A DNA stretch of 64,000 nucleotides from Collimonas antrihumi (GTDB lineage: Bacteria; Pseudomonadota; Gammaproteobacteria; Burkholderiales; Burkholderiaceae_D). Within the stretch, counting starts at the first letter, position 1. Each line of letters opens with the position of its first letter. A program made the position numbers and the translations under genes. The notes under the pieces are model-generated. The model did not search any database and was not told the origin of the DNA. It saw only the letters and a list, made by a program, of their open reading frames with translations. Shown here one piece after another: positions 5,150 through 27,741 of the stretch. The stretch is from positions 1 through 64,000 of the forward strand of contig NZ_JAGQED010000008.1 in assembly GCF_018304965.1 (NCBI RefSeq). Reading direction: 5' to 3'.

Positions 5150-5767
5150 ATGGCACGTGGACGTTCTCCCGGATACGACGACCAGCGCGAGGCAATTCGG
5201 GCCGGCGCGGCGCAATTGTTCGCATCGCGCGGCTATCCGGCTACTTCAATGAATGAAGTGGCCGACGCTTGCGGTATGTCGAAACCCTCGCTTTATCACT
5301 ATTTCCGGGATAAGGACGCATTACTGGCCAGTATCGCCGAAGACCATGTGTCGCGGCTGGAGGCGGTAGTCGAGGCTGTGCAGAAAGAAAGTCTCGATCC
5401 GAAAGCGCATCTGTATCGCCTGATTAACCGCTTCGTCGAGGAATATGCCGGCGCCCAGCATGCGCATCGGGTCCTTACCGAGGACGTGCGTTTTCTTGGC
5501 GAAGAAGACCGTGAACGCATCCTGGAAGGGCAACGCAGAGTCGTCGCCGCATTTGCACAAGTGATTGTCGCTTTGCGTCCGGAACTGGGCGAGGCGCAAC
5601 TGGCCAAGCCGCTGACCATGCTGCTGTTCGGCATGATCAACTGGATGTTCACCTGGCTGAAACAGGATGGCAACCTGACGCATGAGGCGATGGCGCCCAT
5701 CGTCGCCGATTTATTCTTTGGCGGTTATCCGGCGGTGCAATTGCCGGCGATCGCCGCTGGCGCTTAG
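5150..5767 (+). CDS. paaR: PaaR, TetR-family regulator of phenylacetate catabolism
   Basis: A 205-residue TetR repressor. The helix-turn-helix is at about residues 15-60 (AAQLFASRGYPATSMNEVADACGMSKPSLYHYFRDKDALL), followed by an all-helical ligand domain. Its place between paaY and paaZ matches the TetR-type PaaR of Burkholderia and other betaproteobacteria, which senses phenylacetyl-CoA. A 12-bp palindrome precedes the gene. paaX, a second known phenylacetate regulator of a different family, lies 2.2 kb downstream, so two regulators may share control. Confidence 0.87.
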   Translation: MARGRSPGYDDQREAIRAGAAQLFASRGYPATSMNEVADACGMSKPSLYHYFRDKDALLASIAEDHVSRLEAVVEAVQKESLDPKAHLYRLINRFVEEYAGAQHAHRVLTEDVRFLGEEDRERILEGQRRVVAAFAQVIVALRPELGEAQLAKPLTMLLFGMINWMFTWLKQDGNLTHEAMAPIVADLFFGGYPAVQLPAIAAGA

Positions 5768-7946: not shown

Positions 7947-8882
7947 TCAGTTCAGACCGCCGAAGCGCTGGTAAAAATAGGGTGCCGCAGCCGGTACGTC
8001 GTCGCTTTCGCGACGCAGGGTTTCAAGTATGTATTCTTCGGCGCTGGCCTGGGTGGCGTTATACACCTGATGGCAAAGATCATAGGCCGTCTTGCCGGGC
8101 CAGTTGGCCGGTAATAGTTCCAGCGGCAGTTGCGGGTCGTGCAATTGCACGCGGCGGAATTCGTGGATCGCCAAGGTCCGCAAGACGAATGCCTGTTCGG
8201 GATCAAGTATCTTTTTTGCGTTCAGGAGTTTTGGCAGCGACGCAAAGCACGTCAGGTAGTGCTCGTAATCGGCCATTACCGATTCCAGTTGCCAGCATTG
8301 CTCAACCAGGTCGCTGAGCGGCCGTCCGGCCACCTCTTGTGCTTCGGTTGCGCTGCACACAAAAACTGTATCGTGTACATCGATGCGATCGAGAATTTCC
8401 CGAAGCGTCTGCGGATCGGCGTTGGGATGTCCGAAAATCGCCGGCGCGATGGTGCCGAAGCCTTCCCACAGCAATTCTTTGCGTAACAAGGCACGCTGCT
8501 CGGCAGTGATGCCGTCGCCACTAGCGAACAGCAATGTCCATTTTCCTTGCCATGGCTGGTCCGAAGGCGTGTACACCCGCTGATACGCATGCTCAAAGCG
8601 GGTGGCCGCCGCCGGATTCAGTGCGTACAAGCTGCGTCGGCCCTCGCGCTTGGCGTCCAGCCATCCTTCTTCTGCGAGGCGGAATACACTGGTACGGACC
8701 AGGCGGTCGCTGATGCCGAAGGGCGCGAGCAGCTCGATCAGGCTGCCTAGCCATACTTCGCCGCCATGCGGCGTAATCGTATCGCCGAAAAGTGTCATCA
8801 CCACGGACTTCGCTCTTGGCGGATTGGTCGCTATAAACTGCTCAATCCATTTCTTGATTGCCGGGCTTGGAGTTGAATTCAT
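7947..8882 (-). CDS. paaX: PaaX, phenylacetyl-CoA-responsive repressor
   Basis: About 311 residues from the ATG at 8882 (MNSTPSPAIKKW). The N-terminal winged helix includes PPRAKSVVMTLFGDTITPHGGEVWLGSL and SDRLVRTSVFRLAEEGWLDAKREGRRSLYAL, typical of PaaX. The long C-terminal half is the PaaX effector domain (EFRRVQLHDPQLPLELLPANWPG). The family represses paa genes until phenylacetyl-CoA binds. It is convergent with paaZ. A reading extended upstream to 8975 has no family support. Confidence 0.93.
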   Translation of the reverse strand: MNSTPSPAIKKWIEQFIATNPPRAKSVVMTLFGDTITPHGGEVWLGSLIELLAPFGISDRLVRTSVFRLAEEGWLDAKREGRRSLYALNPAAATRFEHAYQRVYTPSDQPWQGKWTLLFASGDGITAEQRALLRKELLWEGFGTIAPAIFGHPNADPQTLREILDRIDVHDTVFVCSATEAQEVAGRPLSDLVEQCWQLESVMADYEHYLTCFASLPKLLNAKKILDPEQAFVLRTLAIHEFRRVQLHDPQLPLELLPANWPGKTAYDLCHQVYNATQASAEEYILETLRRESDDVPAAAPYFYQRFGGLN

Positions 8883-9008
8883 GATCGAGAGAAGATAGTC
8901 TTTGCAATTCAGAATAGCAGGCTCGCCAAAAAATGGGTGCACTGCCGAATTGCTGGATGATACAGGCATCGGCACATTTTTTCACTTCTGGATCATCTGC
9001 AAGCGCCA

Positions 9009-9135: not shown

Positions 9136-11544
9136 CTAAGCTGCTCCTTCTTCCTCTTCCGCGAGATATTTTACCTGTTCGGATGGAGCTGGAACTACGT
9201 TATCCAGCGATGTAAACAATTTTCGTGCTTGCAGATTCAACTGCGCCACGCCTGATTCGCCGCCGCCGTTGGCAGCCACGACAATTCCCGACACCGCGTT
9301 AATCGCACTCATGAAGGCGCCTTCAAGCCAGCCGCCTAAATGACTGTAGCTGTCACAGGCAAGGAAGAAGCGATTGCCCAGAGCAGCATCTTTCGCGTGC
9401 GTGTGATAACGGAAGCAGAAATTGCTCTGATAGTAGTCTCCGGTGACATCCAACTTGAAGCCGCCGGCGGTCTGATTGGTGGTCCAGTCGAAGACAAATC
9501 GATCTTCCAGCGTGACCTTGCTCAATACGTCGGCGAACCACCAGCGCGTGTAGAACCCGGTTAGTGGATCCTTGATGTCCCGGCTGGCGCGATTGATCAT
9601 GGTTCTGAACATGTCTTCAGCCGACAGCGCCTTTCCTTCCGAAACATTCTGCGGATACATGCCAAAATCACGTTGCAAGCGGGTCGAATCATCGTTCCAG
9701 GTATAGCTGACCAGCAAAGTCGAATATAGAGAGTTAATCGAACTAGGCACAATGTAGCTGGCAGCCAGGCCGCAGTCAGATACCACCGCCTTGATTTTTT
9801 GCGTCACGATCGATGATGGATCGTCCTGATCGGCCTGATAAGTGAATGACGGTACGCCCGGTCCCTCGACGTCGGAAGTCAGGATTTTTCCGAATACCTT
9901 GGAAGATCGCACCATGGTCAACATGCTTACCGCCGTGACGGCACGCGCATTCTGCGCTGCATGCGTTCTACTCATCAATAGAGGTGGCAAGGCACTTGCA
10001 TAGTCCACTGTAGCGTAGCCAAGGCCGATATCGCCAAATTTAACGGTTCTGTCGCCATGGACCGCGTAGCCGGCACGCGTTACCATCGGTATCAACTGGT
10101 CCTGTGGAAGCGCCAGGATGGCGTAGTCGAAATTTTTCTGATGCAAAGGGCGCGCTGCAGGATCTTCTGCGTCCTTGTGTTCGTAATAGAGAACCGTAGC
10201 CGGGCTATCCAGCCGTGGATCGTGAAATACATCCGATACGCGGCCCAATACGACGCTGACTTCGAATTTGGCTCCGCCGGGATCCGTCTTGAGCGCCAGC
10301 TTGCAAAGATCTTCGATGAATGTAACGTTTTCGTCAACTGGCAGTGAATACTCTCGGGAATAATCCCATAACACCAGGCGCATAATCTCCGGCAAGGAAA
10401 TATTGTAGAGAGGTTTGAAGCCGCCGGTGCCGAAGCCGAAACGGCCAAATAATTCAACGTAATAATTTTCCTTTTCGGCAGTACTGGACAGGCCCGGAAT
10501 CTCCGGCAGGATGTCCAGCCGGAAGCGTACGCACTGACGCACTGCGGATTCCAGGGTGTGGCCATCCCATTGGTGCACAAAGTCCTTCCAGTTCTGGCTG
10601 ATGTGGGTCAGTTGGTCTGCCGGGGTGTCTTCCTCCTTCAATTTTTGTAGCACTTCGTATGGCCGTTCGTCGCCAATCATGAACAGAGAATCGTGCTCGC
10701 CAGGCAGGTAGCCAGGCTCGCCAGGAGTGAATCCGGGGTCGCCGATGAAGCCAAAAATCACAGCGTCCTTCACCGCCAGTGTGGGTGAGGACTCGTCATG
10801 CCAGGTGTCCCGCGCATAACGATCGACCTGGTCGCCGAACACGAATTCCGTGGCTACAGTACCGGGATTAGGGAAAATCTTAATTGGTGCATCTTCGTCA
10901 AAAACTTGTGCCGCATAGTGCCATGTCAAACCGGCGATAGTCGGGAAGCGCATCGCACCAACTTCATAAACGGTTTCGGATTCGCCGACGCGTGCGGCTG
11001 AAACGCGGCCGGCCTTTTTGCCAAAAACATCGACAGCTTTTCCGGCCGGTTTGGCCAGGAAGCTGTTCGGGTCTGTTTCGAAGATCGTTACGGTGATATT
11101 GCCGGAACTGCGCTTTGCAGCGATTCGGCTCAATTCATACAATGCGCTGATGCCCGCAGCGCCTGCGCCGACAATGCCAATATTCAGATCGCCGCCGTCG
11201 GGTATGACGCCAATTTCCGGCTCCACTGCAAGAGGGTATGAAATTTCAGCAGAGTCGGGGTGGCGATAAAACTTTCCTTCCTCAAGCACATCGCCAATTT
11301 TTGTGAAATCGGGGATTTTCATCCCTCGCTTAAGTTTTATCTTGTCCCGCAAGCCCAGCATTAACGTCACACTCATATAAGCCTCTGTCGGTTGAAATAC
11401 GCGGATTCTTTGCCTGTGCGGCGAACTATCTGCAATGTCGCCTGCCGTCACAAACCTTGCTTCGCAGTTTTGCATTCGCTCCTCAAAAAAAGCGCGCTCG
11501 CCCGGATGCAAAATAATTGTATTTTTTGATAACTTGAGATGCAA
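9136..11544 (-). CDS. FAD-dependent L-amino-acid oxidase/monooxygenase (Phe/Trp 2-monooxygenase-like)
   Basis: An 802-residue flavoprotein of the amine oxidase superfamily. The FAD dinucleotide motif IGIVGAGAAG is at 122-131, far from the N-terminus; EVGAMRFP at 194-201 is the second flavin motif shared with tryptophan 2-monooxygenase and L-phenylalanine oxidase. SHLGGWLEGAF near the end is the C-terminal FAD motif. The start is TTG 11544 with AGGTG upstream; an ATG at residue 57 is an alternative. No signal peptide is visible. The family oxidises aromatic L-amino acids, often with decarboxylation to the amide. Its place inside the paa cluster suggests phenylalanine as substrate, which is inference. 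Confidence 0.75.
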   Translation of the reverse strand: MHLKLSKNTIILHPGERAFFEERMQNCEARFVTAGDIADSSPHRQRIRVFQPTEAYMSVTLMLGLRDKIKLKRGMKIPDFTKIGDVLEEGKFYRHPDSAEISYPLAVEPEIGVIPDGGDLNIGIVGAGAAGISALYELSRIAAKRSSGNITVTIFETDPNSFLAKPAGKAVDVFGKKAGRVSAARVGESETVYEVGAMRFPTIAGLTWHYAAQVFDEDAPIKIFPNPGTVATEFVFGDQVDRYARDTWHDESSPTLAVKDAVIFGFIGDPGFTPGEPGYLPGEHDSLFMIGDERPYEVLQKLKEEDTPADQLTHISQNWKDFVHQWDGHTLESAVRQCVRFRLDILPEIPGLSSTAEKENYYVELFGRFGFGTGGFKPLYNISLPEIMRLVLWDYSREYSLPVDENVTFIEDLCKLALKTDPGGAKFEVSVVLGRVSDVFHDPRLDSPATVLYYEHKDAEDPAARPLHQKNFDYAILALPQDQLIPMVTRAGYAVHGDRTVKFGDIGLGYATVDYASALPPLLMSRTHAAQNARAVTAVSMLTMVRSSKVFGKILTSDVEGPGVPSFTYQADQDDPSSIVTQKIKAVVSDCGLAASYIVPSSINSLYSTLLVSYTWNDDSTRLQRDFGMYPQNVSEGKALSAEDMFRTMINRASRDIKDPLTGFYTRWWFADVLSKVTLEDRFVFDWTTNQTAGGFKLDVTGDYYQSNFCFRYHTHAKDAALGNRFFLACDSYSHLGGWLEGAFMSAINAVSGIVVAANGGGESGVAQLNLQARKLFTSLDNVVPAPSEQVKYLAEEEEGAA

Positions 11545-11600: not shown

Positions 11601-11676
11601 TTAATCTGTAAATTGATACATGGAAATAACGTGATACCGAAAAGATGTTTACAGATTAAATTTAGTATCATATTAT
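11601..11676 (+). promoter_or_regulatory. paaA promoter with 12-bp inverted repeat
   Basis: Perfect arms ttaatctgtaaa (11601-11612) and tttacagattaa (11648-11659) are separated by 35 bases. The right arm contains a -35-like TTTACA (11648-11653), and TATTAT (11671-11676) follows at 17 bases. The promoter would drive paaABCDE-paaN onward; the leader to paaA is about 120 bases. The arms are unlike the PaaR palindrome at 5111, so another regulator, for example PaaX, may act here. Confidence 0.6.
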
Positions 11677-11800
11677 TTGATTCGTCGACGCACATGACTT
11701 CCCCGGACAGACGCGATGCAGTTCATCGCGTTCTTACTGCAACGTTGGAGCATGCGCTGTAGCAAATCGAACAAAAGAGATTGCATAGGAGAGAAACGCC

Positions 11801-12805
11801 ATGTACGCGCAATTGGTTGAAACTGGCAGCAAGTCGCTACGATCCCTGGATGAGATGACGCCGGAAGAGCGTGCGTTTCAGGAGCGGGTGAACGAAGGTG
11901 TGAAGATCGAGGCTAAGGACTGGATGCCGGAGGGTTATCGGAAGACTTTGATCCGCCAGATTTCACAGCATGCGCACTCCGAAATTGTCGGGCAATTGCC
12001 GGAGGGTAACTGGGTAACCAGAGCGCCAAGCCTAAAGCGGAAATCCATATTGCTGGCGAAGATCCAGGACGAGGCGGGCCACGGTCTTTACCTGTATAGC
12101 GCTGTCGAAACGCTCGGTGTATCGCGTGACGAGGTGCTCGCCGACCTGCATTCAGGCAAGGCAAAGTATTCCAGCATTTTCAATTATCCGACCTTGAACT
12201 GGGCCGACATGGGAGCCATCGGCTGGCTGGTTGACGGCTCGGCCATCATCAACCAGGTTCCGCTTTGCCGCTGTTCTTACGGCCCATATGCCCGTGCCAT
12301 GGTACGCGTTTGCAAGGAAGAGTCTTTTCATGCGCGCCAGGGCTACGACATCATGCTGGCATTGTGCAACGGCACGCCGGAACAAAAGCAGATGGCGCAG
12401 GATGCGTTCAACCGCTGGTGGTGGCCGGCACTGATGATGTTCGGCCCGTCTGATGCGGAATCGGTCAATAGCACGCAGTCAGCCGCATGGCGCATCAAAT
12501 TGTTTTCGAACGATGAACTGCGGCAGAAGATGGTCGACCAGACCGTGCCGCAGGCAGAGTTCCTGGGCTTGAGCGTGCCCGATCCCGATCTCAAATTCAA
12601 TGCTGAAACCCAGCATTACGAATTCGGCGAAATCGACTGGAGTGAATTCAATAACGTCATTAAAGGCAACGGTCCATGCAATCGCGACCGTTTGCGGACC
12701 CGCGTCAAGGCGTACCAGGATGGCGAGTGGTTTCGCGATGGCCTGGTGGCGCACGCGGATAAACAGGAACGCCGCAAGGCACAGCAGGCGCCACTGGCGG
12801 CCTGA
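11801..12805 (+). CDS. paaA: Phenylacetyl-CoA 1,2-epoxidase catalytic subunit PaaA
   Basis: A 334-residue ferritin-like di-iron oxygenase subunit. It carries the iron ligand motifs EAGHGLYLY and [12 protein letters not shown] (two E-x-x-H sets) expected of PaaA. With PaaC it forms the core that epoxidises phenylacetyl-CoA with O2 and electrons from PaaE. An AGGAG site precedes the ATG (ataggagagaaacgccatg). It is the first gene of the main operon; paaB follows after 18 bases. Confidence 0.97.
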
Positions 12806-12823
12806 TCGAAGGAGAAATATTCC

Positions 12824-13108: not shown

Positions 13109-13127
13109 GTCAGTCCGGAGATTGAAA

Positions 13128-13898: not shown

Positions 13899-13918
13899 AT
13901 CTGGCAAAGGCGATAGCG

Positions 13919-14437: not shown

Positions 14438-14460
14438 TTGGATTTGGAGAGTAGCCCGTC

Positions 14461-15537: not shown

Positions 15538-15604
15538 ACTGCCGGTCGTTGCCGGAATCATATTGCATTAGATGTTAAATAATTAATATATTGGAGATAG
15601 CGCC

Positions 15605-17269
15605 GTGTCCCATCCTCTTTTTGAGCGTCATCAGGAACTGCTGCAGCAGGCCAGCGAAGCAATCGAACAGCGTGGCTACTGGAGCGCGTATACAGAAATG
15701 CCTAGCCCCAAGGCGTATGGCGAAACCGCCAATGACGATGGCAAGGCAGCCTATGAGGCGCGCCTGGAAAAGCCGTTTGGCCTGACCCAGGTAGCGACTG
15801 TCGGTCAGGTCGGAAATGAGATGTCGCCGTACGGCTTCAAGCTTGGCGTCAGCTACCCGAAGGCGGATCTGGATCAACTGTTTGCAGCCGTCAAGGCTGC
15901 ATCTCCGGCCTGGCGCAAGGCGGGGCCGGAAGCATGGGTTGGCGTTTCAATGGAGATATTGCAGCGCCTGAACCGGCGCAGTGTCGAGATTGCCTATGCA
16001 GTAATGCACACCACCGGCCAGGCATTCATGATGTCGTTCCAGGCTGGCGGTCCGCATGCCCAGGATCGTGGACTGGAAGCGGTGGCGTATGCCTGGCAAG
16101 CGATGCGCAAGATCCCGGCGCATGCCTTTTGGGAAAAACCGCAAGGCAAGAACCCGCCGCTGAAAATGGAAAAGCACTATAGCATTGTGCCACGCGGCAT
16201 CGGGCTGGTAGTCGGCTGCTGCACTTTCCCGACCTGGAACAGCTATCCCGGCCTGTTTGCCAGTCTGGCGACCGGTAATGCCGTGGTGATCAAGCCGCAT
16301 CCGGGCGCCATCTTGCCGCTGGCGATCACGGTCCAGGTGGCGCGCGAAGTACTGGCCGAAGCCGGCTTCGATCCGAATATCGTGACGTTGGCAGCGCACG
16401 AACAGGACGACGACACGGCTACTCAACTGGCGCTCCGTCCGGAAGTACGCCTGATCGATTTTACCGGCAGCAGCAAGAATGGCGACTGGCTGGAACAGCA
16501 TGCTCGCCAGGCCCAGGTATTTACCGAAAAGGCCGGGGTCAACCAGATCATCATCGACTCCACCGATGATTTCCAGGGCATGGTGCGCAATATCGCGTTT
16601 TCGCTCACGCTGTACTCCGGGCAAATGTGCACTGCGCCGCAGAATATCTATATTCCAAAAGACGGCATCGCCACCGCTGAAGGGCATGTCAGTTTCGACC
16701 AGGTTGTCGCCGCCATCGGCGAGAGCATCGCCAGGCTGACCGGCGATCCCGCCAAGGCGGTTGAATTGCTGGGCGCGATCCAGAATACCGGCGTGCTGGC
16801 GCGCATCGATGCAGCGCGTGCCATCGGTACAGTCGTAATTGACAGTAAACCGTTGCAGCATCCCTTGTTCCCGGCGGCATGCATACGCACGCCGTTGCTG
16901 ATGAAGGTGGCGGAAGCAGAACAAGGCAAGGTCATGCAGGAGTTCTTCGGGCCGGTTTCTTTCGCCGTTGCCTGTGCCGACATGACGCACTGCATCGCCT
17001 TGGCGGAGCAGGCCGCGCGCACACACGGGGCTTTGACCTTGTCAGTGTATTCCAGCAACTCCGCGGTAATTGCCGCAGCGCGCGATGCCGCAGAGGAAGC
17101 AGGGGTTGCCTTGTCGATCAATCTCACCGGCGGCGTGTTTGTGAACCAGTCCGCGGCATTCAGTGATTTCCACGGCACCGGCGCCAATCCGGCGGCAAAC
17201 GCGTGCTTGTCGGATACAGCGTTCGTTGCCGGTCGCTTCCGCGTTGTGCAGACTCGCGCACACGTATAA
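15605..17269 (+). CDS. paaN: PaaN, phenylacetate-degradation aldehyde dehydrogenase (long form)
   Basis: A 554-residue ALDH-superfamily protein with a GTG start after ttggagatagcgcc. The presumed nucleophile is the Cys in GQMCTAPQ, and the NAD-fold FTGSSKNG segment is present. It lacks the MaoC hydratase domain of PaaZ. The sequence fits the PaaN family of betaproteobacterial paa clusters, whose exact role is less clear than that of PaaZ. Here both paaZ and paaN occur, so it may oxidise the same semialdehyde or a by-product. Confidence 0.85.
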   Translation: MSHPLFERHQELLQQASEAIEQRGYWSAYTEMPSPKAYGETANDDGKAAYEARLEKPFGLTQVATVGQVGNEMSPYGFKLGVSYPKADLDQLFAAVKAASPAWRKAGPEAWVGVSMEILQRLNRRSVEIAYAVMHTTGQAFMMSFQAGGPHAQDRGLEAVAYAWQAMRKIPAHAFWEKPQGKNPPLKMEKHYSIVPRGIGLVVGCCTFPTWNSYPGLFASLATGNAVVIKPHPGAILPLAITVQVAREVLAEAGFDPNIVTLAAHEQDDDTATQLALRPEVRLIDFTGSSKNGDWLEQHARQAQVFTEKAGVNQIIIDSTDDFQGMVRNIAFSLTLYSGQMCTAPQNIYIPKDGIATAEGHVSFDQVVAAIGESIARLTGDPAKAVELLGAIQNTGVLARIDAARAIGTVVIDSKPLQHPLFPAACIRTPLLMKVAEAEQGKVMQEFFGPVSFAVACADMTHCIALAEQAARTHGALTLSVYSSNSAVIAAARDAAEEAGVALSINLTGGVFVNQSAAFSDFHGTGANPAANACLSDTAFVAGRFRVVQTRAHV

Positions 17270-17327
17270 CGAGACGTGCGTAGAGCACATTTCCGCCAAA
17301 AATACATAGACAAATCCGGAGCAACGA

Positions 17328-18119
17328 ATGCCTTATCAAAACATTCTGCTGGAGATCCAGGACGGCATTGCGCGACTGACGCTCAACCGTCCTGAAAAGC
17401 TCAACAGCTTTACTGTCGCCATGCATAACGAAGTGCGCGCGGCGCTGGAACACATCGAGGCCGATGCTTCGGTCCGGGTGCTGGTGTTGACCGGCGCCGG
17501 ACGCGGCTTTTGCGCCGGCCAGGACTTGGGCGACCGTGCCGTGGCGCCCGGTTCTGCCGCGCTCGACCTCGGCGAATCGGTGGAGCGATACTACGCACCG
17601 CTGGTGCTGGCGCTGCGTAATCTGCCGTTCCCGGTGATTTGCGCAGTCAATGGCGTTGCTGCCGGTGCCGGCGCCAATCTGGCGCTCGCCGCAGATATCG
17701 TTATCGCCACCCGCTCGGCATCATTCGTCGAAGCTTTTTGCCGCCTCGGCCTGATCCCTGATACCGGCGGTACTTATTTTCTGCCGCGCCTGGTCGGCAA
17801 CGCGCGCGCGTTGGGAATGGCGCTGCTGGGCGAAAAATTGACGGCTGAACGGGCCGAAAGCTGGGGATTGATCTGGAAATGTGTGGATGACGATCAATTC
17901 GGCGCCGAGGTCGAGCAACTGGCCCGGCATTTCGCCAGTGCGCCAACCAAAGGCCTGGCCCGCACCAAACAAGCCATTTATGCGAGCCCGGCCAATACAT
18001 TAGTGCAGCAACTCATGCTGGAACGCGATTTTATGCGCGAACTCGGCCACAGCCGGGATTATCGCGAAGGCGTCAGTGCATTCATTGAAAAACGCGCACC
18101 GCAATTCAAGGGAGCGTAG
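17328..18119 (+). CDS. paaG: PaaG, 1,2-epoxyphenylacetyl-CoA isomerase
   Basis: A 263-residue crotonase-fold enzyme. The oxyanion-hole regions are AGRGFCAGQDLG and NGVAAGAGANLALAADIVI; the acidic catalytic residue fits RLGLIPDTGGTYFLPRLVG. PaaG turns the ring epoxide into oxepin-CoA and later shifts a double bond. AGC-rich spacing and a GGAGC site place it in the paaA operon, three bases before paaH. Confidence 0.94.
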   Translation: MPYQNILLEIQDGIARLTLNRPEKLNSFTVAMHNEVRAALEHIEADASVRVLVLTGAGRGFCAGQDLGDRAVAPGSAALDLGESVERYYAPLVLALRNLPFPVICAVNGVAAGAGANLALAADIVIATRSASFVEAFCRLGLIPDTGGTYFLPRLVGNARALGMALLGEKLTAERAESWGLIWKCVDDDQFGAEVEQLARHFASAPTKGLARTKQAIYASPANTLVQQLMLERDFMRELGHSRDYREGVSAFIEKRAPQFKGA

Positions 18120-18122
18120 CAA

Positions 18123-19667
18123 ATGACAAATTCCATGGCAATCGCACTCAACACCTCGCGGCTGGTTGCGGTGATCGGCAGCGGCGCGATGGGTGCCGGC
18201 ATTGCACAGGTGGCGGCCGCCGCCGGCCATCGCGTCAAGCTGTACGACACGCGTGACGGTGCCGCTGTCAAGGCTGTCGCCGAAATCCGCAGGAATTATG
18301 AAAAGCTGAGCGCGAAAGGCAAAATGACCCCCGCAGCGGCCGATGCAGCAGGCGGAAATTTGCTGGTGGCCGGTACACTGGAAGAACTTGCCGATGCAGC
18401 ACTGGTCGTGGAAGCGATCGTCGAGAATCTGTCGGTCAAGCGCCAGTTGTTTAGCGATCTGGAAGCGATCGTCGCTGACGATTGCATTCTTGCCAGCAAT
18501 ACCTCGTCGCTTTCGATCACGGCGATTGGCGCCGGTTTGCGCTTGCCGCAGCGGCTGGTTGGCATGCATTTCTTCAATCCGGTGCCACTAATGGCGTTGG
18601 TCGAAGTTATCAGCGGCCTGGCAACCGAGCGCTGTGTCGCCGAGATCGTCCACGCCACCGCCATCGCATGGGGCAAGAGCCCGGTGCATGCTGCCTCCAC
18701 GCCAGGTTTCATCGTCAACCGCGTGGCGCGTCCGTATTATGCCGAAAGCCTGCGTGTAGCCACCGAGCAGGCGGCAAGTCCGGCAACACTGGATGCAGTG
18801 ATGCGCGAGGCCGGCGGTTTCCGCATGGGGCCATTCGAATTGATGGATCTGATCGGGCATGACGTCAATTTTGCTGTAACCAGCTCGGTATTCGCGGCTT
18901 GCTTCAACGATCCGCGCTTCACGCCGTCGCTGCTGCAGCAAGAGCTGGTCAACGCCGGCTTCCTGGGCCGGAAGAGCGGACGTGGCTTTTATCACTATGG
19001 CGAGAATACCGACGTACCCGAAGTACACACCGAGCCGGCATATCCGATGCAGCGGGAAGCGGCGCTGCCTGTGGGTTCCGCGATGGCCGATATGCTGGCT
19101 GCGCGGCTATCGTCTTCCGGGATACATTTGCGGCGCACTTACTTTGAGCACGGCGACGACGCGCTGCTGGAGTGCGGCAACGCAACCATATTCCTGACCG
19201 ACGGCCGCAGCGCTACTCAACGTGCCCACGACAATGCGATTCCGAACACAGTATTGCTTGATCTGACCCTGGATTTCTCAAGTGCCAAGCGGGTCGCGCT
19301 GGCACGCGCCGATCAATGCAGCGATGCCGCCTACCAGGCGGCGGTTGGATTGTTCCAGGCCGCCGGTTATGCCGTTTCACCGCTCGCCGATGTACCCGGA
19401 ATGGTGGTCATGCGTACCGTAGCGATGCTGGCCAATGAAGCCGCCGATGCTGTCAACCAGGGCGTATGCAGCGCACCGGCAGTCGATACTGCGATGCAAA
19501 AAGGCGTCAATTATCCGTGCGGCCCGCTGGCCTGGGCGGACAGCATCGGCCTGGACCGCGTGCGCACGGTACTGCGCAACCTGACTAACGTGTATGGCGA
19601 GGACCGCTACCGCATTTCCCCGCTGATCCAGCGCAAGGTCGCTGCCGGGAGGACATTCCATGGGTGA
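18123..19667 (+). CDS. paaH: PaaH, 3-hydroxyadipyl-CoA dehydrogenase
   Basis: A 514-residue 3-hydroxyacyl-CoA dehydrogenase. The NAD motif is IGSGAMGAGIAQVAAAAGH near residue 20; the catalytic His is in GMHFFNPVPLM. A second 3HCDH C-terminal domain follows, giving the long PaaH form. It oxidises 3-hydroxyadipyl-CoA to 3-oxoadipyl-CoA. Its end overlaps the paaI start by eight bases. Confidence 0.95.
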   Translation: MTNSMAIALNTSRLVAVIGSGAMGAGIAQVAAAAGHRVKLYDTRDGAAVKAVAEIRRNYEKLSAKGKMTPAAADAAGGNLLVAGTLEELADAALVVEAIVENLSVKRQLFSDLEAIVADDCILASNTSSLSITAIGAGLRLPQRLVGMHFFNPVPLMALVEVISGLATERCVAEIVHATAIAWGKSPVHAASTPGFIVNRVARPYYAESLRVATEQAASPATLDAVMREAGGFRMGPFELMDLIGHDVNFAVTSSVFAACFNDPRFTPSLLQQELVNAGFLGRKSGRGFYHYGENTDVPEVHTEPAYPMQREAALPVGSAMADMLAARLSSSGIHLRRTYFEHGDDALLECGNATIFLTDGRSATQRAHDNAIPNTVLLDLTLDFSSAKRVALARADQCSDAAYQAAVGLFQAAGYAVSPLADVPGMVVMRTVAMLANEAADAVNQGVCSAPAVDTAMQKGVNYPCGPLAWADSIGLDRVRTVLRNLTNVYGEDRYRISPLIQRKVAAGRTFHG

Positions 19668-20145
19668 TTTGCAAATCGTTCCGGCCATGCCGGGCATGCA
19701 AGAACTGGCCGAAGCCACTGCCAAAACGATGTTCGAACGCGACCAGGCGTCGCAAGCGCTTGGCATGCAGATCGTCGGCATGGGACCTGGATCTGCGCAA
19801 CTGACCATGCGGGTGCGGCCGGACATGCTGAACGGCCATAGCACCTGTCACGGCGGTTTCATTTTCGCCTTGGCCGACAGCGCCTTTGCCTTTGCCTGCA
19901 ACAGCCATAACCGCAACACCGTGGCTTCCGGTTGCAGCATCGACTACCTGGCGCCCGGCTATGCAGGCGACATCCTGACCGCACAGGCGGCAGAGCAATC
20001 GCGCGCGGGCCGGACCGGCGTCTACGATGTCACGATATGCAACCAGTCCGGCACACGTATCGCATTATTTCGCGGCAGATCCTATCAGATAAAAGGCGAG
20101 GTTCTGGAAGAGCCTATGCCTGCTAGCCAACCTGCCGAATCCTGA
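19660..20145 (+). CDS. paaI: PaaI, phenylacetyl-CoA pathway thioesterase
   Basis: A 161-residue hotdog thioesterase. The motif HGGFIFALADSAFAFACN with its catalytic Asp is typical of PaaI. The family hydrolyses ring-hydroxylated phenylacetyl-CoA and relieves CoA trapping. It overlaps paaH by eight bases, so translation is probably coupled. Confidence 0.95.
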   Translation: MGDLQIVPAMPGMQELAEATAKTMFERDQASQALGMQIVGMGPGSAQLTMRVRPDMLNGHSTCHGGFIFALADSAFAFACNSHNRNTVASGCSIDYLAPGYAGDILTAQAAEQSRAGRTGVYDVTICNQSGTRIALFRGRSYQIKGEVLEEPMPASQPAES

Positions 20146-20183
20146 CTGTCACATTTGCCGAATATTATTTGAAGGAGACACGT

Positions 20184-21533
20184 ATGCCGCAACGTAAACA
20201 TGATCGGAGTGATCTGGAACCGATCGAACTGGCCAGCAAGGATGAATTACAGGCGTTGCAATTGGAACGCATGCAATGGTCGCTCAAGCACGCGTATGAA
20301 AATGTGCCGCATTATCGCGCTGCCTTTGATGCCGCCGGCGTTCATCCGAGCGATCTCAAGTCGCTGGCCGACCTGGCACGTTTTCCGTTCACGACCAAAC
20401 AGGACTTGCGCGATCAGTATCCATTCGGGATGTTTGCCGTGCCACGTGAAAAAATCTCCCGGATCCATGCGTCGAGCGGTACTACGGGCAAGCCAACGGT
20501 GGTCGGCTACACCCGCAACGATATCGATACCTGGGCCACCGTTGTTGCGCGTTCGATCCGCGCCGGCGGCGGACGTGCCGGCGATATTATCCATATATCG
20601 TATGGCTACGGCTTGTTTACCGGCGGGTTGGGAGCGCATTACGGCGCCGAAAAACTTGGCTGCACCGTGGTGCCGATGTCCGGTGGTCAAACCGAAAAGC
20701 AGGTCCAGTTGATCCAGGATTTCAAGCCCAGCATCATCATGGTGACGCCATCGTACATGCTCAACATCATCGAGGAATTTACACGGCAGGGGCTCGATGC
20801 GGCGGAAAGTTCGTTGAAAGTGGGGATATTCGGCGCTGAACCGTGGACCGATGCAATGCGCTCGGAAATCCAGACCCGTGCCGACATCGATGCGGTCGAT
20901 ATCTATGGCTTGTCCGAGGTGATGGGGCCAGGCGTGGCCAGCGAATGCATCGAAAGCAAGGACGGTCCAATTATCTGGGAAGATCATTTTTATCCCGAAA
21001 TCATTAACCCGGATACCGGCGAAGTGGTAGCCGATGGCGAGGAAGGAGAGCTGGTGTTTACCTCGCTGACCAAGGAGGCATTACCGATCATTCGCTACCG
21101 GACCCGCGACCTGACGCGCTTGCTGCCGCCTACCTCACGCTCGATGCGGCGTATCGGCAAGATCACCGGCCGTTCCGACGACATGCTGATCATCCGCGGC
21201 GTCAACGTGTTCCCGACGCAGATCGAAGAACTGATCCTGAAAAACCCGCGACTGGCGCCGCACTACCAGCTGATCGTCACGCGCGACGGCAACCTGGACA
21301 AACTGCAGGTGCTTGCCGAATTGCGCGGCGAAGCCAGCAGTCAGCTGCCGGCGACGGAAATCGAATCGATCGGCAATGAGTTGCAGCATGCCATCAAGAC
21401 CTATATCGGTATCAGCACACGGGTATCCGTGCTGGCTTCATCCGGCATCGAACGGACTTTGACCGGCAAAGCCAGGCATGTGATCGACAAACGTCCGAAG
21501 GTGACACATGAACAGCCGGTCGGCGCTGTATAG
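20184..21533 (+). CDS. paaK: PaaK, phenylacetate-CoA ligase
   Basis: A 449-residue AMP-forming ligase of the ANL superfamily. The P-loop-like motif SSGTTGKPTVVGY, the adenylate-binding DIYGLSEVMGPG and the hinge GRSDDMLIIRGVNVFP are all present. It activates phenylacetate to phenylacetyl-CoA, the first committed step and the source of the inducer. ATG 20184 follows gaaggagacacgt; a TTG fifteen bases upstream overlaps that site and is unlikely. Confidence 0.96.
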   Translation: MPQRKHDRSDLEPIELASKDELQALQLERMQWSLKHAYENVPHYRAAFDAAGVHPSDLKSLADLARFPFTTKQDLRDQYPFGMFAVPREKISRIHASSGTTGKPTVVGYTRNDIDTWATVVARSIRAGGGRAGDIIHISYGYGLFTGGLGAHYGAEKLGCTVVPMSGGQTEKQVQLIQDFKPSIIMVTPSYMLNIIEEFTRQGLDAAESSLKVGIFGAEPWTDAMRSEIQTRADIDAVDIYGLSEVMGPGVASECIESKDGPIIWEDHFYPEIINPDTGEVVADGEEGELVFTSLTKEALPIIRYRTRDLTRLLPPTSRSMRRIGKITGRSDDMLIIRGVNVFPTQIEELILKNPRLAPHYQLIVTRDGNLDKLQVLAELRGEASSQLPATEIESIGNELQHAIKTYIGISTRVSVLASSGIERTLTGKARHVIDKRPKVTHEQPVGAV

Positions 21534-21603
21534 ACGGTCTGGCATGTCTGGAGCATAGAAGTATAGAAATATGAAAATAAGAATATAAACAGGAGACTTT
21601 GCA

Positions 21604-24171
21604 TTGATATCCGCTAAAAAAATAGCATTGGTGCTGGCCATCTGCGGTATCGCGGCCAGCTTGCCTTCGGTACAGGCACGGCAACAGCAACCGTCCATCG
21701 TCCACATAGCGCCGCATGGTGCCGTCACGATCAAGCGCGATACATACGGCACGCCGCATATCTATGCCGATACCACGTTCGGCCTGTTCTACGGTTACGG
21801 TTATGCGGTAGCGCAGGATCGGCTGTTCCAGATGGAAATGGCGCGCCGTACATTCACCGGGAAAGTGTCAGAGGCATTGGGTGCCAAGTATCTTACCTCG
21901 GACCAGGCGGTGCGCAGTAACTATAAGCCGCAATCGCTGCTACGCCAGTATGCCGCTTTGCCTGCGTCGGACAAGGCCATATTTGAAGGATATGCCGCAG
22001 GTTTCAATGCCTGGGTCCGGCAGGTCGAGAAGCAACCTGAGCAACTGATGCCCAAGCAATTCAATGACATGGGTTTCAAGCCGGTCAAGTGGACAGCGAT
22101 GGATGTGGTGATGATATTCGTCGGCTCGATGGCCAATCGTTTTTCCGATTTCAACACCGAACTCGACAATCTCGGGTTGTTGAACGCGCTCGTCGAAAAA
22201 CACGGCAAGGAAGACGGTTCGCGGATTTTCGATCAATTGAAATGGGTCGACGATCCAGGGGCGCCGACTACCATTCCATCAGGTCCGGCCGAACGCAAGG
22301 TGACTGGCCCGGCGCCGGCCGAGCAGGCAGTTGATAATCGGCAGCAACTGGCAGGGTTGGCCGCGCCTTCCAGGCAAACCATGCAGGCCATTGCTCGCAT
22401 GCCAAGGGATGCGGGCAATGGCCGCCTGTTGCCGATGTCGGGATCGGCGGCGCAGGACCACCTCGATGCTTTGCTTGCCAGGGATGGTTTGAGCGGTATG
22501 GGTGGTTTCCCGCAGGCCAGCAACATATGGCTGGCAGGCAAGGGCAAGGCCAAGGATGCCCAAGCAATTCTGTTCAACGGCCCGCAATTTGGCTGGTTCA
22601 ACCCGGCCTATGTTTATGCGGTCGGCCTGCACGGCGCCGGGTTCAATGTGGTCGGCAACACGCCGTTTGCCTATCCCAGTATCCTGTTCGGACATAACGG
22701 AAAAATCGCCTGGGGCGCGACCGCGGGGTATGGCGACGGCGTCGATATCTACCAGGAACAGCTCAATCCGGATAATCGCTACGAGTACCTGTATAAGGGC
22801 AAGTATCTGCCGATGATCAAGCGCACCGACATCATCAAGGTCAAAGGTGCGCCAGATCATAAGCTGGATGTTTATGGCACCACGCATGGTTTGGTAGTCG
22901 CCTTCGATATGGAAAAAGGCGTGGCGTATTCCAAGAAGCGAACCTGGGACGGACACGAAGTGGAATCGTTGATGGCCTGGATACGGCAGACGCAGGCGCA
23001 AGACTATGACCAATGGATCGGCCAGGCCGCGCATATGGCAATCACCATCAACTGGTACTACGCCGACGCCAAAGGTAACATCGGTTATGCCTATACAGGG
23101 AAATTCCCGCAGCGCAAGCCGAACCACGATACCCGTCTGCCGGCGCTCGGCACCGGCGACATGGAGTGGGATGCGGTGCTGCCGTTCAGCAGCAATCCGC
23201 AGATGCTCAACCCGCAACAGGGCTGGATCGCCAACTGGAACAACAAGCCGGCTGCCGGCTATCCGAGTCCGGATATGTACTGGTTGTCATGGTCTGCCGC
23301 CGATCGCGTCGAAACCATCATGGATCACTTCAAGCCGGATGACAAGCTGACTCCGGCGGCGATGGCCGGGATCAATCAGAGCGCGTCGTTTGCCGATGTC
23401 AATGCGCGCTATTTCCTGCCGTATCTCAAGGAAGCGGTGGCCCGGCTTGCAGAAAACGACCCGCGCCGCCAGGCGGTAACCCTGTTCGACGGCTGGGATT
23501 TGCAAACTGTCGACAGCAGTACCGCCACGCACTACAAGGCGGCTGCCACCCTGATGCGTACCTGGCTGCCGATCATGCTGAAGAACACTTTGGCCGACGT
23601 TATTCCGGCGGAATACTTCAAGTTTTATTCTGCCGCAGGTTACCCGGTCGCCGGAACGCCGGTGGTCGGCTCGGTCAATATCCAGCCTGGCACTAAAGTG
23701 CTGTATCAGGCACTGAGGGGCAAGCACGCGAGCATCCCGCAGCGCTACGATTTATTTAACGGCAAGAAGCCGCTGGATGTGGTGTTGGCAGCATTGAGCG
23801 AGAGTGTCGAGTCGCTGCAAACCCGTTATGGCAGCGATATGCAGAAGTGGCTGGAACCCGTGGATGAGCATGTTTACCTGTCGAATAACTTCGTGGGCAT
23901 TCCGCAAGCGAATGGCAACGAGCGGTTGAAGACACCGGTCATGATGAATCGCGGCACCGAAAACAACCTGATTTCTTTTACGTCTGACGGCGTACGGAAT
24001 TGCGAAGTTCTGCCTCCTGGACAAAGCGGCTTCATCGCGCCCGATGGCGCCAAATCAAAGCACTATGAGGATCAACTGGAGCTATACAAAAAATTCGAAT
24101 GCAAGCACACGTGGCTGGAGCCGGCCGATGTCGACCGGCATCTGGAATCGAAGACGGTGCTGGAGTATTGA
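21604..24171 (+). CDS. pac: Penicillin G acylase precursor (phenylacetyl amidohydrolase)
   Basis: An 855-residue Ntn-hydrolase precursor. The TTG start has AGGAG eight bases upstream. A signal peptide ends near SVQA (about residue 25), so the enzyme is exported. Ser306 (SNIWLAGKGKA) would be the N-terminal nucleophile of the beta chain after self-cleavage. GPQFGW and NWNNKP correspond to GlnB23, PheB24 and AsnB241 of the E. coli enzyme. MANRF at 176-180 matches MetA142, ArgA145 and PheA146 of the phenylacetyl pocket. It lies between paaK and paaJ on the same strand, suggesting release of phenylacetate from phenylacetyl amides as its job. Confidence 0.93.
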   Translation: MISAKKIALVLAICGIAASLPSVQARQQQPSIVHIAPHGAVTIKRDTYGTPHIYADTTFGLFYGYGYAVAQDRLFQMEMARRTFTGKVSEALGAKYLTSDQAVRSNYKPQSLLRQYAALPASDKAIFEGYAAGFNAWVRQVEKQPEQLMPKQFNDMGFKPVKWTAMDVVMIFVGSMANRFSDFNTELDNLGLLNALVEKHGKEDGSRIFDQLKWVDDPGAPTTIPSGPAERKVTGPAPAEQAVDNRQQLAGLAAPSRQTMQAIARMPRDAGNGRLLPMSGSAAQDHLDALLARDGLSGMGGFPQASNIWLAGKGKAKDAQAILFNGPQFGWFNPAYVYAVGLHGAGFNVVGNTPFAYPSILFGHNGKIAWGATAGYGDGVDIYQEQLNPDNRYEYLYKGKYLPMIKRTDIIKVKGAPDHKLDVYGTTHGLVVAFDMEKGVAYSKKRTWDGHEVESLMAWIRQTQAQDYDQWIGQAAHMAITINWYYADAKGNIGYAYTGKFPQRKPNHDTRLPALGTGDMEWDAVLPFSSNPQMLNPQQGWIANWNNKPAAGYPSPDMYWLSWSAADRVETIMDHFKPDDKLTPAAMAGINQSASFADVNARYFLPYLKEAVARLAENDPRRQAVTLFDGWDLQTVDSSTATHYKAAATLMRTWLPIMLKNTLADVIPAEYFKFYSAAGYPVAGTPVVGSVNIQPGTKVLYQALRGKHASIPQRYDLFNGKKPLDVVLAALSESVESLQTRYGSDMQKWLEPVDEHVYLSNNFVGIPQANGNERLKTPVMMNRGTENNLISFTSDGVRNCEVLPPGQSGFIAPDGAKSKHYEDQLELYKKFECKHTWLEPADVDRHLESKTVLEY

Positions 24172-24254: not shown

Positions 24255-25457
24255 ATGGACGCTTTTATTTGTGATGCCATCCGCACGCCATTCGGCCGTT
24301 ACGGCGGCGCATTGTCAACGGTGCGCGCCGATGATCTCGGCGCACTGCCGATCAAGGCGTTGATTGAGCGTAATCCGTCTGTGAACTGGGCGGAAGTGGA
24401 CGATGTGCTGTACGGGTGCGCTAACCAGGCAGGGGAAGACAACCGCAATGTCGGTCGCATGGCCGCGCTGCTGGCTGGCCTGCCGGAGACGGTGCCGGGC
24501 AACACCATCAATCGGCTGTGCGGGTCGAGCATGGATGCGATCGGCCTGGCTGCCCGCAGCATCAAGGCCGGCGAGGCCGGATTGGTGATTGCCGGCGGCG
24601 TGGAAAGCATGAGCCGCGCACCTTTCGTGATGGGCAAGGCAGAAAGCGCTTTTTCTCGCGCCGCGAAAATCGAGGACACCACGATTGGCTGGCGCTTCGT
24701 CAATCCATTGATGAAGGCGCAATACGGCATTGACTCCATGCCCGAAACAGCAGAGAACGTTGCCGCCGATTTCAATATCAGCCGCACGGACCAGGATGCA
24801 TTGGCGCTGCGCAGCCAGCAACGCTGGGCCGCAGCACAGGCGGCCGGTTTCTTTACATCGGAAATCGCGCCGGTTTCCATTCCACGGAAGAAGGGCGAAC
24901 CGATGCTCTTTTCCAGCGACGAACATCCTCGCCCTGAAACCACTTTCGACACGTTGCAGAAGCTCAAAGGCGTGGTTCGTCCCGATGGCAGCGTGACTGC
25001 CGGCAACGCTTCAGGCGTCAATGACGGTGCTTGCGCGGTGCTGCTGGCCTCAGCCGCTGCCGTCGATAAATATCGGTTGCAGCCGCGCGCCCGTGTGCTG
25101 GGCATGGCGAGCGCCGGGCTGGCGCCGCGCATCATGGGTTTCGGCCCCGCGTTAGCCAGCAAAAAGGTACTGGCGCAGACCGGCCTGACGCTGGCGCAGA
25201 TGGATGTTATAGAACTCAACGAAGCGTTCGCGGCACAGGCATTGGCGGTAACGCGCGAACTCGGTCTGGCGGACGATGCCGTGCATGTCAATCCGAACGG
25301 CGGGGCGATCGCCATCGGCCATCCGCTCGGCGCCTCCGGTGCGCGCCTGGTCATGACGGCGCTCAACCAGCTTGAACGCAGCGGTGGCCGGTATGCGTTG
25401 TGCACGATGTGTATCGGCGTCGGCCAAGGTATCGCCTTGATTATCGAACGCGTCTGA
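24255..25457 (+). CDS. paaJ: PaaJ, 3-oxoadipyl-CoA/3-oxo-5,6-dehydrosuberyl-CoA thiolase
   Basis: A 400-residue thiolase. The acyl-accepting Cys is in NRLCGSSMDAIG, the catalytic His in NPNGGAIAIGHPLGASGAR, and the second Cys in TMCIGVGQG. The MDAFICDAIRTPFGRYGG start and NP..KAQYGIDSMPETAENVA segment fit the 3-oxoadipyl-CoA thiolase subgroup. It performs the two thiolytic steps that release acetyl-CoA and succinyl-CoA. A pcaF function cannot be excluded from sequence alone. Confidence 0.92.
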   Translation: MDAFICDAIRTPFGRYGGALSTVRADDLGALPIKALIERNPSVNWAEVDDVLYGCANQAGEDNRNVGRMAALLAGLPETVPGNTINRLCGSSMDAIGLAARSIKAGEAGLVIAGGVESMSRAPFVMGKAESAFSRAAKIEDTTIGWRFVNPLMKAQYGIDSMPETAENVAADFNISRTDQDALALRSQQRWAAAQAAGFFTSEIAPVSIPRKKGEPMLFSSDEHPRPETTFDTLQKLKGVVRPDGSVTAGNASGVNDGACAVLLASAAAVDKYRLQPRARVLGMASAGLAPRIMGFGPALASKKVLAQTGLTLAQMDVIELNEAFAAQALAVTRELGLADDAVHVNPNGGAIAIGHPLGASGARLVMTALNQLERSGGRYALCTMCIGVGQGIALIIERV

Positions 25458-25530
25458 GTACTAGCATTCGGCACGGAGGAGTCAGCCGGCATGGTTTTCC
25501 TCATCTCATCTTTCTATGGAACGCAAGCGC

Positions 25531-26310
25531 ATGAATGATTTTCAAGATATCAGTCTGGCCCAGCCAGGCAATGGCGTGCTGTTAATCGTTGTGCAACGCC
25601 CGGAGGCGCGTAATGCACTGCGTAACAACACCTTGCGCGAAATTGCGGATGTCCTGCGCAGTACGGCGGACGACAGCGCGGTGCGCGTAGTCGTCATTAC
25701 CGGCGGGCCGAAAATTTTCGCGGCCGGCGCCGACATCAAGGAAATGGCGCAGTTGGGGCCGATCGAGGCTTTGACTGATGTGCGGCCGGAATACTGGAAA
25801 TGCATCGCGGCCTTCCCCAAACCGCTACTGGCAGCGGTCAACGGCTACGCCCTTGGCGCCGGCTGCGAACTTGTCATGCATGCAGACATCGTGATTGCCG
25901 GGGAGGGCGCGAAATTCGGTCAGCCGGAGATCAACCTGGGAACGATCCCGGGCGCTGGCGGCACGCAACGCCTGATCCGCACTGTCGGCAAGCCGCTGGC
26001 AATGAAAATGATATTAAGCGGGGAAATGATAGATGCGCAGACCGCACTGACAGCCGGTTTGGTTGCAGAAGTTACAAGCGACGACAAAGTGCTGGAACGC
26101 GCCACGGAGCTGGCTGCGGTGATTGCGGCCAAGTCGCCGTTGGCTGCGCGGCTGGCCAAGGAAGCAATATTGCGTTCTTTCGAGCTTGGTCTCGAAAGCG
26201 GACTAAACCTTGAGCGCAAGTCATTCTCGCTGCTGGCGGCAAGCAACGACCGCAAGGAAGGTATTGCTGCATTCATGGAAAAGCGACCCGCCGAATTCAA
26301 CGGGAAATAA
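25531..26310 (+). CDS. paaF: PaaF, 2,3-dehydroadipyl-CoA hydratase
   Basis: A 259-residue crotonase-fold enoyl-CoA hydratase. AAGADIKEM and NGYALGAGCELVMHADIV form the oxyanion hole; the catalytic Glu is in PEINLGTIPGAGGTQRLIR. The start at 25531 has GGAA nine bases upstream; an ATG at 25516 adds five residues but lacks a site. It hydrates 2,3-dehydroadipyl-CoA to the substrate of PaaH. Confidence 0.9.
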   Translation: MNDFQDISLAQPGNGVLLIVVQRPEARNALRNNTLREIADVLRSTADDSAVRVVVITGGPKIFAAGADIKEMAQLGPIEALTDVRPEYWKCIAAFPKPLLAAVNGYALGAGCELVMHADIVIAGEGAKFGQPEINLGTIPGAGGTQRLIRTVGKPLAMKMILSGEMIDAQTALTAGLVAEVTSDDKVLERATELAAVIAAKSPLAARLAKEAILRSFELGLESGLNLERKSFSLLAASNDRKEGIAAFMEKRPAEFNGK

Positions 26311-26418: not shown

Positions 26419-27741
26419 ATGACTACCAATGTATTGGCCGCCAGCGCAGCCAGCCCCACAGGCGCAACCCAAGGCGACGACGCGTTATACCGCAAGGTAT
26501 CAATGCGTATTTTGCCGTTTTTGTTCATCTGTTACGTTATTTCATTCCTGGACCGGATTAACATCGGCTTCGCGCAATTGCACATGCAGAAGGATCTCGG
26601 CTTCAGCGACGCGATGTATGGCCTGGGTGCCGCGGTGTTTTATATCGGTTACGTCCTGTGCGAAGTGCCTAGCAATCTGCTGCTGGAAAAATATGGCGCC
26701 CGCAAGACATTCTCTCGCATCATGGTGCTATGGGGCCTGGCGTCGGTCGGCATGATGTATGTATCCACTCCCACGCATTTTTATGCCTTGCGCTTTTTCC
26801 TTGGCGTATTCGAGGCAGGATTTTTTCCCGGCATCGTGCTTTACCTGACCTACTGGTATCCGGTGAGGCGCAGGGCCGCCGTGCTGTCGATCTTTTTTGC
26901 CGGTGTGGCGGTCGCGGGCGTACTGGGCGGTTTGATTTCCGGCTGGATCATGGAAGGCATGGCCGGCGTGTACGGCATGTATGGCTGGCAGTGGATGTTT
27001 GCGATCGAAGGGGCGCCCGCGATTATCCTGGCAGTGGTCGCCTGGTTTTATCTGGACGATCACCCAAAACAGGCGAAATGGCTGAGCCCTGCAGAAAAAC
27101 AAGCGATTGAAGACAATCTTCTGAATGATCCCCGTCAATTGAAGTCGCAAAAAGGCCATTCTTTGGCAGATGCGTTGCGCAATCCGCGTGTCTACCTGTT
27201 TTCCTTTATATATTTTGCACTGACTTGCGCCGTTTTAATGCTGGTGTTCTGGATGCCGCTCATTATCCGGGATCTCGGCATCAGCGATGTCCTGCATATC
27301 AGCCTCTATAGTGCGGTGCCGAACGCGATTGGCGCAATCGGCGTGATACTGATCGCTTGGCATTCGGATCGGAAAGCCGAGCGGCGCAAGCATTTCGCTT
27401 TTTGCGTGATCGGCGGCGCCACCGCACTGTTGATGCTGACCCTGCGCCTGGATAGCTTCGTTGCCATGATGGCGATACTCTCCGTAGCGGCGGCCTTGCT
27501 GTATGCGGCGATGCCGATTTTCTGGGCTTTGACGACTAGTTACCTGTCGGGAATGGCGGCGGCCGGCGGCATTGCCCTGATCAGTAGCATCGGCATCACC
27601 AGCGGCATTATCAGTCCGTGGGTGATTGGCTTGATCAGGACGCACACGGGTAATATGGATTACACCTTATATATCCTTGCCGTTTTGCTGGTAGCCAGTA
27701 CCGTCGCAGTGATGGTTGGTACCAAGGCCGACAAGGGATAA
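26419..27741 (+). CDS. MFS transporter, anion:cation symporter type
   Basis: A 440-residue protein with twelve predicted membrane segments. The motif RILPFLFICYVISFLDRINIGFAQ marks the anion:cation symporter branch (tartrate, phthalate and aromatic-acid permeases). It follows paaF after 108 bases on the same strand with an AGGAGAG site before ATG. Uptake of phenylacetate or a related aromatic acid is a reasonable inference; substrate cannot be read from sequence. Confidence 0.85.
   Translation: MTTNVLAASAASPTGATQGDDALYRKVSMRILPFLFICYVISFLDRINIGFAQLHMQKDLGFSDAMYGLGAAVFYIGYVLCEVPSNLLLEKYGARKTFSRIMVLWGLASVGMMYVSTPTHFYALRFFLGVFEAGFFPGIVLYLTYWYPVRRRAAVLSIFFAGVAVAGVLGGLISGWIMEGMAGVYGMYGWQWMFAIEGAPAIILAVVAWFYLDDHPKQAKWLSPAEKQAIEDNLLNDPRQLKSQKGHSLADALRNPRVYLFSFIYFALTCAVLMLVFWMPLIIRDLGISDVLHISLYSAVPNAIGAIGVILIAWHSDRKAERRKHFAFCVIGGATALLMLTLRLDSFVAMMAILSVAAALLYAAMPIFWALTTSYLSGMAAAGGIALISSIGITSGIISPWVIGLIRTHTGNMDYTLYILAVLLVASTVAVMVGTKADKG

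Follow-up and report, generated by a model that had tools for sequence, protein, structure and literature searches.

Penicillin G acylase gene inside a phenylacetate gene cluster of Collimonas antrihumi, beside an L-phenylalanine oxidase gene that suggests phenylacetamide as its substrate

The window analysed here, a stretch of 64,000 nucleotides of a Collimonas antrihumi genome contig, carries a full phenylacetate (paa) gene cluster with an open reading frame for a penicillin G acylase (PGA) precursor, pac, inside it (Table 1). The plus-strand order is paaA, paaB-type, paaC, paaD, paaE, paaN, paaG, paaH, paaI, paaK, pac, paaJ, paaF and a gene for an MFS transporter, the last scoring under the cut-offs of both TIGR00893 (333 bits) and TIGR02332 (320 bits). 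The paaC, paaD and paaE genes are 72-84% identical to their counterparts in G061, a genome of the same genus. As the sequence-only reading had stated, pac lies between paaK and paaJ on their strand, with gaps of 70 bp from paaK and 83 bp to paaJ, comparable to others in the cluster (paaE-paaN 67 bp, paaN-paaG 58 bp, paaJ-paaF 58 bp). A consensus scan placed no plus-strand promoter- or terminator-like site in either pac gap, its total counts being close to those in shuffled sequences (5 vs. 4.2 and 11 vs. 7.6, respectively); two minus-strand promoter-like sites overlap the paaK-pac and pac-paaJ gaps. Given the gap sizes and the lack of plus-strand hits in the gaps, paaK, pac and paaJ are likely co-transcribed. 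Elsewhere in the window, CoA-transferase family III genes at 329-1597 and 2293-3540 flank a small PAS-domain gene, and an AraC-type regulator gene comes next.

Table 1. Genes and sites of the paa cluster, in window coordinates.
Feature	Position	Strand	Basis or remark
paaY	4418..5020	-	TIGR02287, 325 bits
TetR-type regulator, PaaR-like by position and upstream box	5150..5767	+	PF00440
paaZ	5842..7896	+	TIGR02278, 992 bits
paaX, repressor	7947..8975	-	TIGR02277, 291 bits
PAO, L-phenylalanine oxidase/2-monooxygenase homologue	9136..11544	-	divergent from paaA, between paaX and paaA
PaaX-operator-like inverted repeat TGATAC-N27-GTATCA	11632..11670	.	between PAO and paaA
paaA, first gene in run	11801..12805	+	TIGR02156, 525 bits
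paaB-type ORF, 94 aa	12824-13108	+	named by position, after paaA
paaC	13122-13898	+	named by position and reading; order as in G061
paaD	13919-14437	+	named by position and reading; order as in G061
paaE	14461-15537	+	named by position and reading; order as in G061
paaN	15605..17269	+	TIGR02288, 905 bits
paaG, paaH, paaI	17328..20145	+	TIGR02280, TIGR02279, TIGR02286
paaK, phenylacetate-CoA ligase	20169..21533	+	TIGR02155, 733 bits
pac, penicillin G acylase (S45 Ntn-hydrolase) precursor	21604..24171	+	855 aa; beta chain from Ser306
paaJ, 3-oxoadipyl-CoA thiolase	24255..25457	+	TIGR02430, 737 bits
paaF, 2,3-dehydroadipyl-CoA hydratase type	25516..26310	+	PRK09674, 361 bits, just below 371 cut-off
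MFS transporter, HpaX/galactonate type, possible uptake gene	26419..27741	+	PF07690; TIGR00893, TIGR02332

The PF01804 (Penicil_amidase) profile, which has a cut-off of 21.3 bits, scores 455 bits on the Pac protein; the match takes in residues 41-844 of Pac and positions 2-674 of the 675 of the profile. In a comparison with solved structures, penicillin G acylases take the top rows, and the E. coli copy (locus L104) is identical at 385 of 836 aligned positions (46.1%). By its sequence Pac is a PGA homologue, with a match far beyond chance, in line with the true PGA type claimed for it before. The reading frame starts with TTG and has its own ribosome-binding site, an AGGAG that ends 8 bases upstream. 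Its N-terminus (MISAKKIALVLAICGIAASLPSVQA-R), read by eye, reads as a Sec-type signal peptide, which agrees with the exported enzyme of the sequence-only reading. The catalytic set is present (beta Ser1 nucleophile, Gln23, Ala69, Asn241 and Arg263), and the phenylacetyl pocket, which we take to be formed by alpha Met142 and Phe146 and beta Phe24, Phe57, Trp154 and Ile177, is complete. All these beta residues are conserved between Pac and the E. coli protein, as are beta Tyr31, Gly385, Ser386 and Asn388 and the alpha MANRF motif. Three of the checked positions differ from E. coli, namely beta Val56 (Leu in Pac), Phe71 (Tyr) and Pro205 (Thr). The catalytic and acyl-pocket residues and the MANRF motif thus stand as described earlier, and the three changed positions make the wording 'full pocket set' slightly too strong. 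Passages of PMC3347531 name beta Gln23, Ala69, Asn241 and Arg263 of penicillin G acylase. In the Collimonas genome pac is the sole PF01804 match; a remote relative of the penicillin amidases, 30-33% identical over about 340-370 residues, occurs in 12 of the 14 other genomes of the genus.

The sequence-only reading overlooked the gene divergent from paaA, and this gene suggests phenylacetamide as an internal substrate of Pac. Its product scored 673 bits against 2yr4, the pro-enzyme of the L-phenylalanine oxidase of Pseudomonas sp. P-501, with tryptophan 2-monooxygenase as the second-best chain at 52 bits; no Pfam or NCBIfam family matched the ORF at 0.001. The start is ambiguous (TTG at 11544 or ATG at 11475), and the match leaves uncovered an N-terminal stretch of about 79 residues (56 if the ATG is used), in which the window protein differs from the P-501 oxidase. 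The window gene, for its part, adjoins a paa operon and shares a genome with a PGA. From the chemistry and the EC entry of the enzyme, the amide made from Phe by PAO is presumably phenylacetamide. According to passages of PMC5832979, Phe316, Leu319 and Gly659 of the P-501 enzyme lie at the substrate site, the enzyme both deaminates and decarboxylates, and the monooxygenase reaction is proposed to yield the amide. The three residues are common to both proteins, lying at Phe376, Leu379 and Gly738 of the window PAO. Judged by this likeness, the gene product is an L-Phe oxidase of P-501 type, a type proposed to form an amide from Phe. Unlike Pac, PAO shows no export signal by eye. Its third-position GC (GC3) of 0.589 differs from the 0.696 of pac, so that the two genes need not have arrived together and may have arrived at different times; the paa genes range from 0.644 to 0.721.

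The inverted repeat between PAO and paaA is expected 0.01 times in the window and resembles the E. coli PaaX site, given as TGATTC(N27)GAATCA in passages of PMC9493321. The counterpart in G061 contains a single mismatch and a spacer extended by one base, and no PAO gene is found there, so the site in the window is explainable by paaA alone. We surveyed 1.65 Mb, made up of 80 pac loci (the best 80 of at least 589 relatives), two stretches of G061 and the window. The word TGATAC-N27-GTATCA matched 6 times, which put it at the top of 180 permuted words with a mean of 0.52. One copy in a Zoogloea locus (L006) lies between paaN and paaX, and another, at 14393-14430 of the same locus, precedes an ABC permease ORF, judged by eye to be of Liv type, that adjoins paa genes and pac, hinting at an uptake system that would be under PaaX control in Zoogloea. 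In L073 the word is just upstream of paaA, and the remaining copies are in L068 and L074. The E. coli form, TGATTC...GAATCA, was seen once in the survey, at 8049 of a Citrobacter contig (L046), where the pac match follows after about 240 bp. It is thus reasonable to predict that PaaX controls the PAO-paaA region, but the predicted site may serve paaA alone. TGATTCG half-sites were discarded as uninformative (7 found vs. 13.9 expected). A PaaR-type box was found in one exact copy, at 5111-5122 before the TetR gene, with a total count no more than chance; allowing two mismatches still gave none at either paaA or pac. The cluster carries PaaX-type and TetR (PaaR-like) regulators, each with its own kind of box.

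For the linkage of pac with paa genes we applied similarity thresholds for 12 paa markers to the best 80 of at least 589 relatives, obtained in one scan of genome contigs. At least two markers were found at 19 of these 80 loci, and a paa gene was the same-strand neighbour within 500 bp at 13 of the 80. Of these 80 loci, 61 are flanked by 5 kb or more on each side; 16 of the 61 had two or more markers and 45 had fewer than two. The link had been called rarely seen; with 19 of 80 loci carrying at least two markers, this is wrong. The slots vary: paaI-pac-paaK in Herbaspirillum, paaK-pac-paaA in Variovorax and one MAG, paaK-pac in Paraburkholderia, paaZ-pac in Amaricoccus, pac-paaK in a Woeseiaceae MAG and pac-paaX in Paracoccus. 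A quick maximum-likelihood tree requires 10 changes of the paa label (window included), at least 8 of them forced by starred branches, vs. 18.0 changes in shuffles, and 0 of 500 shuffles gave a value as low. Thus pac has been joined to paa runs in several arrangements, and this recurrence supports a catabolic role in general; the 45 of 61 well-flanked loci with fewer than two markers count against it. The window Pac itself is a long lone branch, 51% identical to the closest row among the best 80 of at least 589, and sits outside the Herbaspirillum/Variovorax group, its exact placement being unsure because of the long branches.

Strong PaaK matches (E <= 1e-60) were found in 2 of 15 genomes of the genus, that of the window and G061. 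The paaX-paaA...paaK-paaJ run of G061 is collinear with the window, with 78% nucleotide identity over 11781-21535, and holds no counterpart of the PAO interval or of pac. In G061, 35 bp separate paaK from paaJ, with no pac in that gap, and paaJ is divided from paaF by an ABC transporter set that was assigned to the Liv type by eye. Another genome of the genus, G083, measures 1.7 Mb at 99% completeness vs. 4.5-5.9 Mb in the other 14 and may belong to a reduced symbiont.

Pac as such is widespread, with at least 589 relatives in the scan of genome contigs; a strong match (E <= 1e-60) was found in 1 of 195 genomes of the family, the window's own. PAO was detected in 1 of 392 family, 1 of 369 class and 1 of 195 phylum genomes, always that of the window, in samples that overlap. 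The same query, which recovers the window gene in these three samples, found no PAO (E <= 1e-20) in any of 49 genomes of other pac loci, and we therefore reject a general partnership of PAO with Pac. It also had no match in plasmids, viral contigs or phages, nor in 398 genomes of the family of G602, a group selected by a 260-bit OprF match and on that ground inferred to be Pseudomonas-like. Neither the 49 nor the 398 genomes include a positive one, and an empty result in such a set shows nothing by itself.

We favour a reading in which pac functions as a member of the paa operon, the substrate of its product is phenylacetamide from PAO and the region is under PaaX control, and we put its probability at roughly one half (0.52). 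PAO would decarboxylate L-Phe to phenylacetamide, the likeliest home-made substrate of Pac in this genome. Pac, as an exported Ntn-hydrolase cutting phenylacetyl amides, would hydrolyse it to phenylacetate and ammonia, and the phenylacetate set free would be taken up and activated by PaaK to phenylacetyl-CoA. PaaX bound at the inverted repeat would repress both directions, PAO and paaA, until phenylacetyl-CoA accumulates. We give about even odds to the two-step Phe branch itself, a flavin 2-monooxygenase followed by a penicillin G acylase with both under PaaX. The favoured reading draws on the sequence matches and conserved residues of Pac and PAO, on the gaps around pac and on the operator-like word, which is present at paa promoters in L006 and L073 as well. 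In addition, both pac and PAO are extra in one cluster relative to G061. Passages of PMC2845550 report that E. coli PGA hydrolyses phenylacetamide, with ammonia release as the assay. In B. cenocepacia, paaA is induced by Phe and by phenylacetamide (passages of PMC2770484), which fits either a PAO-to-Pac route or the scavenging role considered below.

Several observations count against the PAO-to-Pac route. By eye PAO has no export signal and Pac has one, so that the amide would need to exit the cytoplasm and phenylacetate to return, although PMC2845550 notes that processing of E. coli PGA starts in the cytoplasm. The amide could instead be hydrolysed by L102, an amidase-signature protein that the genome encodes in addition to GatA, and a Biopterin_H (PhhA-type) gene in the genome offers another use of Phe. 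The P-501 enzyme also deaminates, so that the amide may be only part of the product. Moreover, the pairing of PAO with Pac was found in the window genome only.

The main alternative holds that Pac acts in the periplasm as a general scavenger, taking external phenylacetyl amides of plant, fungal or microbial origin and feeding the catabolon, with PAO unrelated and its amide or keto acid handled by another enzyme. We rate it as possible, with a chance well short of even. Passages of PMC9493321 and PMC2265553 (citing Galan 2004, Kim 2004 and Merino 1992) state that PGA scavenges phenylacetyl amides and esters and that EcoPaaX binds the pga promoter; scavenging is the published view for E. coli and has been suggested for Acinetobacter. 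It is consistent with the export suggested for Pac, with the additional amidase-signature protein and with the presence of pac in paa clusters of genomes that gave no match when searched for PAO. Yet it leaves unexplained why both genes are extra in one cluster as compared with G061. The earlier proposal, a natural function of Pac in feeding PaaK, gains from the sequence type, the placement of pac and the export signal read by eye, but the general idea had already been published for E. coli. The observation behind that proposal is confirmed, and its interpretation is partly supported and in general form already known.

A shift of Pac to another acyl or leaving group (e.g., hydroxyphenylacetyl or acyl-homoserine lactones), its place in the operon then reflecting regulation only, appears unlikely. 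It draws on the lone branch of Pac in the tree and on Tyr at beta 71, a residue with one parallel (L050) among the best 80 of at least 589 relatives. This position is variable in the same 80 (Phe in 37, Pro in 27, Tyr in 1), so Phe71 does not define the family. According to passages of PMC3347531, residue 71 is a principal one facing the leaving group and every beta-71 mutant of that study is active; a Tyr mutant at this position was not found in the text of that paper. Tyr71 therefore bears on leaving-group preference and is by itself no argument against phenylacetyl binding. Further, the other checked acyl-pocket and oxyanion residues are conserved, and the PvdQ model gave only 78 bits vs. 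its cut-off of 950. Least probable is that pac is a recent passenger insertion without a role in the operon: the gene is missing from the G061 cluster and Pac branches alone, but it is open over 855 codons with a GC3 inside the paa range, has its own ribosome-binding site and occurs in paa clusters of unrelated genomes.

Besides the P-501 oxidase, three known systems can be set beside that of the window. The first is E. coli W, in which PGA is tied to the phenylacetyl-CoA catabolon via PaaX (passages of PMC9493321). The M19 strain of E. coli has its pac about 4 kb away from hpa genes and no paa gene in 18 kb of that locus, whereas the window pac is inside a paa gene run. The M19 pac near hpa (L100, 8133-10675) is annotated as frameshifted, and that of strain EC11 is not. 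The second, Herbaspirillum and Variovorax (L032, L034, L027, L030, L035, L038 and L041), shares with the window a same-strand pac inside a paa run; it differs in the slots given above, in a Pac of another clade and in that the six genomes searched (all of the seven but L035) gave no PAO. The third is the IaaM/IaaH indole-3-acetamide route, in which an amino-acid 2-monooxygenase is followed by an amide hydrolase, as would be the case for PAO and Pac. The window route would differ in using Phe instead of Trp, in feeding catabolism and in relying on an exported Ntn-hydrolase where the known route has an amidase-signature enzyme. A pairing of L-Phe oxidase with penicillin acylase was not met with among the listed hits of the literature searched (titles and starts of abstracts, with few subscription journals), and words beginning with 'acylase' or 'penicillin' do not occur in the text of the paa-cluster papers PMC2653477 and PMC13186573. 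Within that literature, the new element is the pairing of oxidase and acylase in one catabolon.

The natural substrate of penicillin G acylases has so far been a matter of inference. Here an acylase gene lies beside that of the presumed maker of the simplest phenylacetyl amide, which makes the question answerable by growth or product assay in one strain. If the favoured reading is true, the logic of IaaM/IaaH would recur for Phe, with the hydrolytic step taken over by an unrelated and exported Ntn-hydrolase, and the penicillin acylase family would gain a defined metabolic substrate in place of scavenging. The cluster suggests that this industrial enzyme family can act as the second step of an ordinary route of amino-acid breakdown.
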